A DNA stretch of 64,000 nt, taken from contig JAGBCD010000025.1 of NCBI GenBank assembly GCA_017938155.1, forward strand, positions 62,001-126,000, in the 5' to 3' direction. Of this stretch, positions 12,955 through 49,880 are shown piece by piece. The first letter of the stretch is position 1; each line of letters starts with the position of its first letter. This stretch comes from Paludibacteraceae bacterium (GTDB lineage: Bacteria; Bacteroidota; Bacteroidia; Bacteroidales; Paludibacteraceae). The notes under the pieces were generated by a model, which had not been told where the DNA came from, searched no databases, and was given only the letters and a program-made list of their open reading frames with translations. A program made the translations under genes and the position numbers.

Positions 12955-13044
12955 TATTAAAATAATTTGCCTATGAAACATTAATGTGTAGTTAATACGC
13001 ACATCGTGAAATATTGGAAAAGCGTTTTAGTTTAGCATTATTCT

Positions 13045-13263
13045 CATCTCTAACAAAAGTTTGGCGACTGGAAGAAAGAGAACGATAAGAATAATACCTA
13101 AAATGTCTGCGTATTGCGTGGACTTTTTGGTATTTTCGTGTTCTCAGGTTACGCCAAACACCTTGTTAGAGCGAGATACTAAAAAAGTACCGCGCTTTTT
13201 TATGTGCGTATATCTCAAAACAAAAGGTACAACGGAGTAACCGAAAAGCCGAAAGTGAGTAGG
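13045..13263 (+). promoter_or_regulatory. Structured leader RNA A: long hairpin, terminator, shared box
   Basis: An irregular hairpin spans 13045-13177: CTCTAACAA pairs with TTGTTAGAG, TTTGGCG with CGCCAAA, AGAAC-like with GTTCT, AATACC with GGTATT, and ATCTC with GAGAT. A weak intrinsic terminator follows (AGCG/CGCT and TACT/AGTA arms, T6 at 13196-13201). Next come GTGCGTAT (13204) and the box ACGGAGTAACCGAAAAGCCG plus AAAGTGAGTAGG (13232-13263), 29 bases before the ATG of the secreted protein at 13292. The order hairpin, T-run, GTGCGTAT, box, exported protein is repeated at 49281-49059 on the minus strand. No canonical promoter is obvious upstream. Confidence 0.6.
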
Positions 13264-13291
13264 GGATAAATATAAAAAAAAATAGAAAAAT

Positions 13292-13618
13292 ATGAAAAAA
13301 GTTTTAGTTGCGTTGAGCGCATTTATGATTATGGCATTAGGATTTCAGCCTTCTGTTTCTGCTCAAACAGTCTTAGGTGTAGTGATAAAATCTAACCGAG
13401 TAAATGGTTCTCTTAGCATGAATGGAAACGGCACACAAGTTTTTGCAGAATTTAGCAATTTTACAAGTGAAACAGTAACTGTTAGTTGGACAATAACAGT
13501 TAATGGTAAGAAATTGGCTAGTGGAACTTGTACTGTAGAACCACAGGACAAATGTACTACACCTCGTTATGCAAAAACAGAGAATTTTTCTTGTTATGAT
13601 CTTGATTGGAGTTATTAA
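13292..13618 (+). CDS. Small secreted protein, unknown function
   Basis: A 108-residue protein with a Sec signal peptide (MKKVLVALSAFMIMALGFQP, cleavage probably after SVSAQ near residue 25). The mature ~83 residues are beta-rich with many Thr/Ser and three cysteines, and resemble a single beta-sandwich (FAEFSNFTSETVTVSWTITV). No family recognised. It lies directly downstream of leader RNA A and 69 bases before another small exported protein. Both mature proteins look like short beta domains with paired cysteines. Confidence 0.75.
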   Translation: MKKVLVALSAFMIMALGFQPSVSAQTVLGVVIKSNRVNGSLSMNGNGTQVFAEFSNFTSETVTVSWTITVNGKKLASGTCTVEPQDKCTTPRYAKTENFSCYDLDWSY

Positions 13619-13687
13619 AAATAAAGAATTGAATAAGTAAATTAATAAAACCCGATGCTCAATGGGATATAAGTGAGCGACAAAATA

Positions 13688-14041
13688 ATGAAAAAAATTC
13701 TTGTGATTTTAGTTTCTATCTTTATGGTTTCTTCATTAGCTTATGCTGATGGTCAAACTTGTCGTGTTGATAATACTGGAGATGTAAAGTTGGAGTATAG
13801 TAGTAATCAATCAGATTCTGAGGGGTGTGTTCCTGTTCAGCTTACCAACGAAAGTACCTCATCTGTTCAAGTATTGGTGAAGGTGTATGATGCTGATACC
13901 AATAAATTCGTTACGTCTAAATCTATACATGTTGATGGAACTTATACAGTAGGATCCATGACGAATCTGGGAGCAGCTGTTGAGTATATATGCGGCTTAA
14001 AAAAGGATCACGCTTATTATTTTAAGATATCTCTTTGCTAA
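13688..14041 (+). CDS. Small secreted cysteine-containing protein, unknown function
   Basis: A 117-residue protein with a Sec signal peptide (MKKILVILVSIFMVSSLAYA) and a mature domain with four cysteines, beta-rich (VPVQLTNESTSSVQVLVKVY). I take the ATG at 13688 because the signal peptide begins there; an in-frame start at 13673 adds five residues. It resembles its upstream neighbour in size and layout, and both probably share the structured leader at 13045. A strong terminator follows at 14161. Function unknown. Confidence 0.72.
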   Translation: MKKILVILVSIFMVSSLAYADGQTCRVDNTGDVKLEYSSNQSDSEGCVPVQLTNESTSSVQVLVKVYDADTNKFVTSKSIHVDGTYTVGSMTNLGAAVEYICGLKKDHAYYFKISLC

Positions 14042-48494: not shown

Positions 48495-49031
48495 TTATTT
48501 ATCAGTATTCAACTTGATAATTTTAGCAGATACAGTTGTTTTGAAAACGATATTGAGTCCATCTTGTCCCACATTGGTTGATACAATAGGTTCAATAACG
48601 CCATCACCTCCTGCTACTTTGCAGGCATTAATAAGGCGATAAATAGCAATGTTACGAGCTATTTGCTCTGGAGTAATGTCCGAATAATCTCCTATTTTTC
48701 CGTAATCATTTGCCAGAAAACCATATCGAGCCACTCCTTTGAAAGATTTATATTCCCAAGTATATCCTATTCCAAAATTGAATCTTCGTTTAAAGGTAAG
48801 TGAAAAGTCTCCATTTGCATCAGTAATAGTAATTTTATTACCAAATTGTTTATAAATAACCGAAGATTCAGCTGTTATGGTATTTAATACTTTGTAATCT
48901 TTACGTTCCAAATTCAATTCTTCCAAACCGACAGAATTGATTGTATTAATTGCTTTAGGAACAATTGCTAATTTACAAGAAGATAAAAAGACTGTTACAA
49001 ACAAAGTTGCAAAAATAAGATTTTTTTTCAT
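48495..49031 (-). CDS. Lipoprotein, unknown function, behind leader RNA B
   Basis: A 178-residue protein with a lipoprotein signal (MKKNLIFATLFVTVFLSSC, Cys19) and a mature domain with GDGVIEPIVSTNVGQDGLNI, which recalls small Bacteroidales lipoproteins of the trimeric/ring type but is not assigned. I use the ATG at 49031, where the signal peptide starts; the longer frame runs back through the leader RNA. First gene of the operon. The transcript begins near 49268 and carries a long hairpin, an intrinsic terminator and a 33-base box before this start, so expression is probably controlled by attenuation. Confidence 0.8.
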   Translation of the reverse strand: MKKNLIFATLFVTVFLSSCKLAIVPKAINTINSVGLEELNLERKDYKVLNTITAESSVIYKQFGNKITITDANGDFSLTFKRRFNFGIGYTWEYKSFKGVARYGFLANDYGKIGDYSDITPEQIARNIAIYRLINACKVAGGDGVIEPIVSTNVGQDGLNIVFKTTVSAKIIKLNTDK

Positions 49032-49058
49032 GGAAATAAACGTATTTTTATTATTTTT

Positions 49059-49281
49059 CCTACTCACTTCTCGGCATTTCGGATACTCCGTAGCCCATTT
49101 AATCATAAATACGCACAAAAAAAGTGGACTAAACTTTTCAAATCCACTTTCTAAGGTATCGGCAAACACCATGGTGATGAATCTTACAAAGTAAAGCCCA
49201 CATCGAACGATGTAGGCGTTAACTTTACTTCTCATCACCTCATTAAATTTTGCCGATTTTTAGAAAGTGAGAACAAAGATA
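49059..49281 (-). promoter_or_regulatory. Structured leader RNA B: promoter, long hairpin, terminator, shared box
   Basis: Minus strand. Promoter TATCTTTG at 49281-49274. The predicted RNA starts with CACTTTCTAA (49269-49260), which pairs perfectly with TTAGAAAGTG (49154-49145) and closes a ~125-nt irregular hairpin (ATCGGCAAA/TTTGCCGAT, GGTGATGA/TCATCACC, AGTAAAG/CTTTACT, ACATCG/CGATGT). The GAAAGTG arm can instead join AAAGTGGA (49150-49143) with TCCACTTTTTTT (49128-49117), an intrinsic terminator, so the two folds exclude each other. Next come GTGCGTAT (49116-49109) and a 33-base box ACGGAGTATCCGAAATGCCG plus AGAAGTGAGTAGG (49091-49059) shared with leader A. Confidence 0.65.
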
Positions 49282-49880
49282 ACGCTATCTTTAATATGTA
49301 GTACGTAACTTAACTATTATAAGCAATGTTTCATAGGCATAATCATATTTAATTTTACGGACTGCAAAGTTACATATTTTTTTTTACATATACAATTATT
49401 AACTTGTTGGCGGAATTAAAAAATTAAATCCGTTCGGTCAAATTTTCTATAAATCAAAGAATAAGTTATGATTTTTTAGTGGACAATAGAGAATCTACAT
49501 ATGAAAAGTAGGGTTAGTAAGCCATACCTATAACATAGTTGTAATCTAACGTATATCTATCGTATATGTTTCGTATATCTATCGTATATCTATCGTCTTT
49601 GTATCGTCTTTGTATCGTCTTTGTATCGTCTTTGTCTGCAAATAATCTGCACGAAGTTACGATATATTTACGGAATGTTTTTACATCTAAGAACACATTT
49701 TTTAATTCCGTCATCGAGTAATTACTATTTATTTTAGCACTTATCAATCCGTGTTTATACGGACCTACAAACATAAAGCAAGTTATAAGGACGAGAAAAG
49801 GATATTGAAATAATCTTTATCACTCTAATCATATATTAACGTAAAACGAATTTTATATTTGTACATTAAGAAAAATTCCT
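49282..49880. other. Intergenic stretch, repeats only
   Basis: About 600 bases between the divergent lipoprotein operon and the MATE gene. Apart from the 11-bp repeats (49550-49637) it is AT-rich with no convincing gene; an 86-codon minus-strand frame crosses the repeats without a signal or promoter. Confidence 0.6.
49550..49637. repeat. Eight tandem 11-bp repeats
   Basis: Units CGTATATCTAT, CGTATATGTTT, CGTATATCTAT, CGTATATCTAT, then CGTCTTTGTAT three times and CGTCTTTGTCT, in strict 11-bp phase. TCTGCAAATAATCTGCACGA follows. The open frame across them on the minus strand follows from the repetition. Confidence 0.9.

Follow-up and report, generated by a model that had tools for sequence, protein, structure and literature searches.

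Two leader regions, designated A and B, were analyzed within the window, the whole 64,000-nt stretch of contig JAGBCD010000025.1 from a Paludibacteraceae bacterium. Leader B lies on the minus strand upstream of two predicted lipoprotein genes, and leader A precedes two small exported-protein genes (12969-14041 with the leader; Table 1). Upstream of leader B, at 49544-49631, the window also carries six overlapping copies of a 33-nt unit with 11-bp spacing (ATCTATCGTAT-like). Judged by sequence comparison, leader B is one member of a new multi-copy family of structured leader RNAs that is predicted across the Bacteroidota.

Table 1. Features of leader B and its downstream genes, and of leader A, in window coordinates.
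Feature	Position	Strand	Partner, basis or comment
Likely promoter	49365..49395	−	TTG 49395-49393 (−33) and TAACTTTG 49372-49365 (−7), spacing N20; letters and family statistic
Expected transcript start of leader B	~49356-49360	−	Inferred from the predicted promoter
Mini-ORF-like ATGAAACATTGCTTATAA (MKHCL*)	49317..49334	−	Starts within GCCTATG box 49338-49332; putative role
P0 5′ strand TACGTAC	49301..49307	−	GTGCGTA 49116-49110; family test
Strand 1 AGCGTTATCTTTGTTCTCAC	49267..49286	−	Strand 2 in nascent RNA; nascent fold of B and family tests
P1 5′ strand CACTTTCTAA	49260..49269	−	TTAGAAAGTG 49154-49145
S1-side loop strand TCGGCAAA (P2)	49249..49256	−	Complementary to 49166-49159
P3 5′ strand GGTGATGA	49232..49239	−	Covariation and leader B fold
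Strand 2 (GAGAAGTAAAGTTAACGCC and P5 arm)	49208..49233	−	P4 5′ 49229-49223; P5 5′ 49217-49208
Strand 3	49190..49205	−	CGATGTGGGC = P5 3′ 49205-49196; CTTTACT = P4 3′ 49196-49190
P3 3′ strand TCATCACC	49173..49180	−	Covariation and leader B fold
S2 hairpin GGT-loop-ACC	49155..49170	−	Loop strand TTTGCCGA 49166-49159 pairs with the S1 side
P1 3′ strand TTAGAAAGTG	49145..49154	−	Last bases double as part of the subgroup's local terminator
Local terminator hairpin, B subgroup	49121..49150	−	AAAGTGGA 49150-49143 with TCCACTTT 49128-49121
Strand 4 AGTCCAC	49130-49124	−	Alternative partner: strand 3
T7 run	49117..49123	−	Letters
P0 3′ strand GTGCGTA	49110..49116	−	Family test and leader B fold
DUF805b-like box	49057..49092	−	RF02914, 19.2 bits, below gathering (35.6)
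Downstream gene, 178-aa predicted lipoprotein	48495..49031	−	Weak DUF6567 match, 15.8 of 27 bits (below cut-off)
Second predicted lipoprotein gene, 321 aa	47521..48486	−	ORF; probable operon
Leader A	12969..13278	+	Model match 13034-13199; DUF805b-like box 13232-13265; in no training alignment

The 225-nt leader B folds far better than its shuffled versions (z = −6.91; 0 of 200 shuffles as good). Of the two pairings proposed in a first-pass annotation of this DNA, the perfect 10-bp match of CACTTTCTAA with TTAGAAAGTG was confirmed in the letters, and a terminator pairing of AAAGTGGA with TCCACTTT is possible; the seven T's placed after that terminator do form a run, but three of them are already used in the arm pairing. 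The box behind the T-run is indeed common to leaders A and B, and resembles DUF805b RNA (RF02914) in both. The B subgroup has a local terminator, with the sequence GTGGATTAAAAAGTTTAGTCCAC in most of B's relatives there, and its left arm overlaps the last bases of P1. Forcing it in B gave −55.6 kcal/mol vs −58.2 kcal/mol for full P1, a cost of 2.6 kcal/mol, with four of the ten P1 pairs and two outer pairs opened. Since the exchange concerns four of ten pairs, the overlap between the two folds is real but secondary, and describing them as mutually exclusive was an overstatement.

A DNA search of 101 genomes, comprising the window's own and its relatives, gave matches in 13, the better of which share one anatomy before different genes. 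The covariance model R1, built from 11 copies, matched at E 0.1 in 88 of 101 genus genomes and 102 of 295 order genomes, counts that include weak matches taken by E-value alone, without inspection; stricter filters were used and few candidates were scored per genome in these scans, so that the copy numbers are lower bounds. A text pattern for the apical hairpin returned at least 120 stretches, 80 of which (L111-L190) were used. Among these 80 matches listed, 77 belong to Bacteroidota by record title, the rest being from Acidobacteriaceae, Actinobacillus and Limnohabitans, and the carriers include Alistipes, Rikenella, Odoribacter, Prevotellaceae, Paludibacteraceae, Barnesiella and two Chryseobacterium. 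At E 0.01, R1 matched 78 of the 80 listed loci, L176 only partly, with the Acidobacteriaceae and Actinobacillus loci as the exceptions. In the non-Bacteroidota control genomes, the best match in Actinobacillus had an E-value of 0.07 and Acidobacteriaceae gave none at E 1; the Limnohabitans MAG had one strong match (E 1.9e-19), which we take for mis-binned DNA. A phage origin was rejected: two IMG/VR contigs fit the text pattern, and the best model score was 19.3 bits (E 0.0049) in one (L231), with no match in the other (L232).

The second model, R2, has neither A nor B among its 99 rows; it gave B a score of 131.7 bits and leader A one of 56.3 bits (E 1.8e-8). Among 395 genomes sampled over the phylum, R2 matched in 54; at E 0.001 it gave nine matches in the window's genome, and 29 were found in an Alistipes senegalensis MAG, six in Alistipes sp. 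dk3624, five in A. muris and four in Chryseobacterium defluvii. Eight of the nine own-genome matches (A, B and six others, C43:19697 excepted) were read by eye, and all eight have the family anatomy. In leader A, the S1/S2 loop strands are swapped between sides relative to B, and four other own-genome copies (L251, L253, L257 and L260) have a longer, structured apical loop, a whole match of 213-241 nt and a strand 1 that starts with AGCGTTTATTAGCGCT or a close variant. Elsewhere, two family members stand in tandem before one gene (L183), and one element lies ~190 nt behind an RNase P RNA gene (L168). The family tests used 116 loci, obtained from 121 gathered after removing three duplicates and, for parsing, L184 and L146. 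From the 80 listed rows (A2), the partial L176 and the opposite-strand L123 were removed, and from the genus and order loci (L052-L110) 43 of 59 were used, leaving out copies already in set A1, a repeat and some weaker genus ones; the 116 thus lack B and most of its subgroup.

A common order of elements was found. It begins with a promoter, a GCCTATG-like box (present, with its very short ORF, in roughly one locus in three), the P0 5′ strand, strand 1 (AGCGUUAGCUUUUAUUCUUG-like) and P1, and continues with hairpin S1 (approximately GAAA-loop-UUUC), P3, strand 2 (..AGUAAAG..ACGCUCACG), a loop and strand 3 (CGUGGGCUUUACU). These are followed by P3′, hairpin S2 (GGU-loop-ACC), P1′, a spacer, strand 4 (GUCCACG-like) and the U-run, behind which stand the P0 3′ strand, strand 5 (UGGACU-like) and the start codon. 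The core thus described consists of the arms P1 and P3, with two small hairpins between them whose loops pair, beneath the P4/P5 hairpin; in leader B, strand 1 overlaps the first 3 nt of P1. A subfamily (L112, L122, L138, L153 and L186) has a possible AGCGTTTTCGCT hairpin in strand 1 and stands before related genes, of which the single one scanned (L186) is an MmeI_Mtase.

Comparison of the loci shows a predicted rod state, formed by P1, the S1/S2 loop pairing, P3 and the apical P4/P5, in which strand 2 pairs with strand 3. P1 was paired in 78.9% of cells in 11 sequences and in 96.1% in 99 sequences, where all seven pairs have two-sided changes. In the 99-row alignment, which was fitted to the structure and includes the B-subgroup local terminator as two helices (64.9% and 76.0% paired), the rod helices had 1081 doubly changed cells vs 318 in shuffles and 89.8% of cells paired vs 36.6-42.0% when slid; the near invariance of P5 is partly due to the text pattern that found most rows. 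In 112 of 116 loci, the S1 and S2 loops can pair over 5 nt or more, the 104 distinct rows showing 46 different pairing sequences, and the S1 stem is supported as well (z −7.8 vs −2.0 for the reversed control).

The same comparison shows 1:2 and 3:4 as putative alternative covarying helices, the latter ending at the U-run. We used an alignment-free test, in which the duplex energy with a strand's own partner was compared with that of foreign-locus partners in 86 non-redundant loci of the 116, B not among them. The z-scores, which overstate independence because of the shared ancestry of the loci, were −12.0 for 1:2, −12.6 for 2:3, −8.4 for 3:4, −7.0 for 4:5 and −43.4 for the P1/P2/P3 block, and the control pairings not predicted, which share the same ancestry, were null in these loci (1:3 −0.3, 1:4 +1.8, 2:4 −0.4). 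P0 was weakly supported (−3.5; its own control −1.0), and a strand 1:4 pairing of AGCG with CGCU was rejected at +1.8. At the end of the strand 3/strand 4 helix, the base before CGTG and the base after CACG or its variant pair in 90 of 100 cases (61.0 expected), and all four Watson-Crick types occur, with G-U in 9 of the 90.

Thus strand pairing has the options 1:2, 2:3 or 3:4, and since these share strands, neighboring pairings are mutually exclusive; the predicted competition common to the family is that among strands 1, 2, 3 and 4. The predicted 3:4 arm adjoins the T-run (gap 0) in 105 of 116 loci, with a T-run of 4-8, though at least four consecutive T's were required when the loci were parsed. 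On average, 1:2 and 2:3 differ little in energy (−15.8 and −16.0 kcal/mol; SD of the difference 2.7 across loci). As long as strand 3 has not been transcribed, the minimum-energy fold contains 1:2 in 114 of 116 loci vs 48 of 116 when strand 1 was shuffled once per locus, and nascent leader B likewise folds with 1:2 paired. At equilibrium, the 3:4 state lies a median of 13.4 kcal/mol above the rod, and 3:4 appears in none of the 116 minimum-energy folds. These equilibrium energies count against a simple thermodynamic switch, and termination must therefore be kinetic or factor-assisted.

The family also bears on the 5′ end, for which a promoter had been annotated at TATCTTTG (49281-49274), with the RNA starting from it. 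These letters lie inside strand 1, which is conserved and is the partner of strand 2, and as this pairing is supported, they are very probably transcribed. In 83 of the 114 loci with sufficient flank, TAnnTTTG boxes lie between 40 and 220 nt upstream of strand 1 (12.4 expected by shuffling; 9 in reversed text), at a median distance of 72 nt. The TTG and TAACTTTG of leader B were read as its likely promoter by the Bacteroidetes −33/−7 consensus. The promoter of leader B thus likely lies about 90 nt upstream of TATCTTTG, and the promoter and 5′ end proposed earlier are very probably wrong.

At the gathering thresholds of Rfam 15, the whole window gave only two tRNAs and nothing on leader B, 20 loci (mostly family members) gave only DUF805b boxes, and 20 order loci gave no match. 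Below these thresholds, leader B matched L20_leader and DUF805b, among others. At E up to 10 in eight loci, the sole overlap with the element was L20_leader (23.3 bits, L190), which is the best named leader over the core with sub-threshold scores of 18.8 (B) and 23.3 of 58.7 bits. Known riboswitch, T-box, 6S and leader families gave no match at gathering in these scans, and the earlier remark that no known riboswitch core is recognizable holds against Rfam 15. For 6S, the window and the two 20-locus sets had no match at gathering, and leader B and eight loci had none at E up to 10. The family is without an Rfam 15 counterpart over its core. We found no description of it in the openly licensed PMC literature; PMC8040213 reports thousands of candidate RNAs, and a partial overlap of the family with its unnamed candidates is possible.

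The DUF805b-like boxes of B and A (28.6 bits) both score below gathering, and those in two relatives pass it (42.7 bits in L032 and 39.4 bits in L033). DUF805b RNA, reportedly described in a 2017 paper, is met here as a box that follows the U-run in A, in B and in several relatives within the genus, and by eye it is common in the B subgroup. However, it is a separate 35-nt element that occurs without the attenuator too: in L003, in the window's own genome, it scores over gathering between two genes with no attenuator before it, and the gene after it encodes, by eye, a small membrane protein. As a fixed partner of the family it was rejected, a simple text pattern finding it after only 5 of 116 loci.

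The nearest mechanistic likeness is to trp-type four-strand attenuators and to riboswitches that switch by 1:2 / 2:3 / 3:4 pairing. The overlapping strands, the antiterminator opposed to a terminator and the U-run before the gene are shared with them, but here the whole P3′-S2-P1′ block separates strand 3 from the terminator right arm, the core is a two-hairpin loop-loop contact, many copies stand before unrelated exported-protein genes, and the short ORF, where present, is too short for an amino-acid leader peptide. Purine-type riboswitches likewise have a loop-loop contact between two hairpins of one RNA; in them, the contacting hairpins are side arms of a three-way junction, whereas in the family the two lie between P1 and P3, one on each strand, and no purine-type match was found at gathering in the window or the two 20-locus sets. 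Integron attC sites occur in arrays, where each is found at the 3′ end of a cassette gene; the family element was not assigned to them, as it immediately precedes a gene in 85 of 106 loci. Flavo-1 RNA (RF01705) is, in PMC9723704, also a Bacteroidota motif of several 5′ regions, but it is reported there to match in both sense and antisense, whereas the strand of the family is fixed; at E up to 10 it had no match in eight loci, including two from Chryseobacterium.

Of the 106 loci with enough sequence, 85 have a same-strand ORF of 100 aa or more that begins no further than 150 nt downstream (median 58 nt), compared with 4 of 104 divergent controls. A crude signal-peptide rule classes 80 of 108 genes behind the element as exported-like, and among those of at least 150 aa the fraction is 63 of 76 vs 136 of 412 other ORFs of that size, the latter including some shadow ORFs. 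From 71 complete downstream proteins of 100-600 aa (70 distinct), 30 were scanned against Pfam and gave BACON, OMP barrel, PEGA, VWA, T9SS tail and other matches, some of them below Pfam's own cut-off; at E 0.01, 10 of the 30 had nothing, and these 30 proteins have no theme narrower than 'exported'. Non-exported genes (XRE-type, LytTR and methyltransferase) also occur downstream, assigned by eye except for MmeI_Mtase. In the Alistipes senegalensis MAG, 20 of the 29 copies were viewed, and 10 precede, by eye, the start of an exported-like gene. Six near-identical copies in this MAG (L282-L287) have strand 1 GCGCATCGGCTTTTCTTC and strand 4 GAGTGATTTGCCCGC, and five of them lie 304-1069 nt from the next ORF; they are possibly a stand-alone or repeat-like subfamily. 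The gene downstream of another Alistipes copy (L275) resembles, by eye, the second operon gene of leader B, so that RNA and gene type may travel together.

Leader B is likely a cis-acting 5′ leader of this Bacteroidota-wide family that would act as a transcription attenuator. Helices share strands at the family level (in B alone, this concerns 4 of 10 P1 pairs), and a predicted intrinsic terminator lies before the gene. The first-pass annotation had also read the leader as an attenuator, and its competing folds and terminator before a gene stand, but the competition it singled out is minor and specific to the subgroup; since the architecture covaries in 116 loci, an attenuator-type reading is now more strongly supported than that annotation could know. 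As RNA polymerase advances, strand 1 would capture strand 2 first, after which P1, the loop pairing and P3 would zip up and pass strand 2 to strand 3, forming an antiterminator. The polymerase would then read through into the gene for the exported protein, after which 4:5 and P0 would close. Should the zippering fail or be blocked, the free strand 3 would pair with strand 4 and transcription would terminate. In the B subgroup, a local hairpin may have replaced the left arm of the terminator. Candidate signals are a ligand, a protein, a ribosome at the mini-ORF, or ions and temperature, and we think that the sensed signal acts on the S1/S2 junction. Against attenuation, the local terminator of B is nearly compatible with the rod, and several copies in Chryseobacterium and relatives lie ~225-380 nt from the next ORF.

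The pairings across the U-run can be read in another way. P0 and 4:5 reach partly beyond it, which a pure terminator would not need and which counts for a role after read-through, and many loci have, by eye, an A-rich stretch just upstream of strand 1. A leader switch acting after transcription, on translation start or mRNA stability, could use the U-run as a structural element paired with this stretch, with no terminator; we regard this as unlikely, because a G+C-rich arm followed by U4-8 with gap 0 is the usual design of an intrinsic terminator, and 3:4 covaries while 1:4 is unsupported. An independent, 6S-like small RNA with its own terminator, merely placed before genes, would account for the rod shape, the predicted promoter and terminator of its own, the 5 of 20 viewed Alistipes copies at 304-1069 nt and the several Chryseobacterium-type copies at 226-378 nt from the next ORF. 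The close same-strand gene starts, nearly lacking in the divergent control, together with up to 29 matches per genome and the lack of a 6S match at gathering in the Rfam scans, make it very improbable.

Ribosome-mediated attenuation, in which translation of the short ORF at the GCCTATG box would set the choice between 1:2 and 2:3, draws on the enrichment of this box. GC[CT][TAC]ATG occurs in 40 of 114 loci vs 2.8 expected by shuffling, and with a slightly wider pattern the box ORF has at most four codons in 33 of 41 cases vs 70 of 370 for other ATGs; moreover, the P0 5′ strand is within reach of the ribosome (in B, 9 nt past the stop). However, even with the wider pattern no box was found in 73 of 114 loci, by which the mini-ORF was rejected as a universal part, its ATG is a median of 49 nt from strand 1, and the +1 frame control also gave short ORFs in 24 of 41 cases, because ATGA contains TGA. 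We therefore consider this model improbable, more so than the post-transcriptional switch and less so than the small RNA.

The family is, as judged from its predicted architecture and placement, a structured leader RNA that usually stands just before exported-protein genes and looks built for a choice between stopping and continuing transcription. Bacteroidota are a dominant phylum of gut and environmental bacteria, in which, to our knowledge, few general RNA regulators have been described. Orphan RNA classes of this size have led to new ligands in the past. Tentatively, and with more doubt than confidence, the family may be an orphan class of riboswitch-like RNAs, spread across the phylum and reaching dozens of copies in a genome, through which one common signal, for example a second messenger or an envelope-related metabolite, would act via the loop-loop core to regulate termination before much of the variable exported proteome. 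A covarying leader present in many copies in some genomes, before genes for envelope and secreted proteins, would be a new layer of cell-surface regulation, and the family offers testable strands and a likely sensing core.
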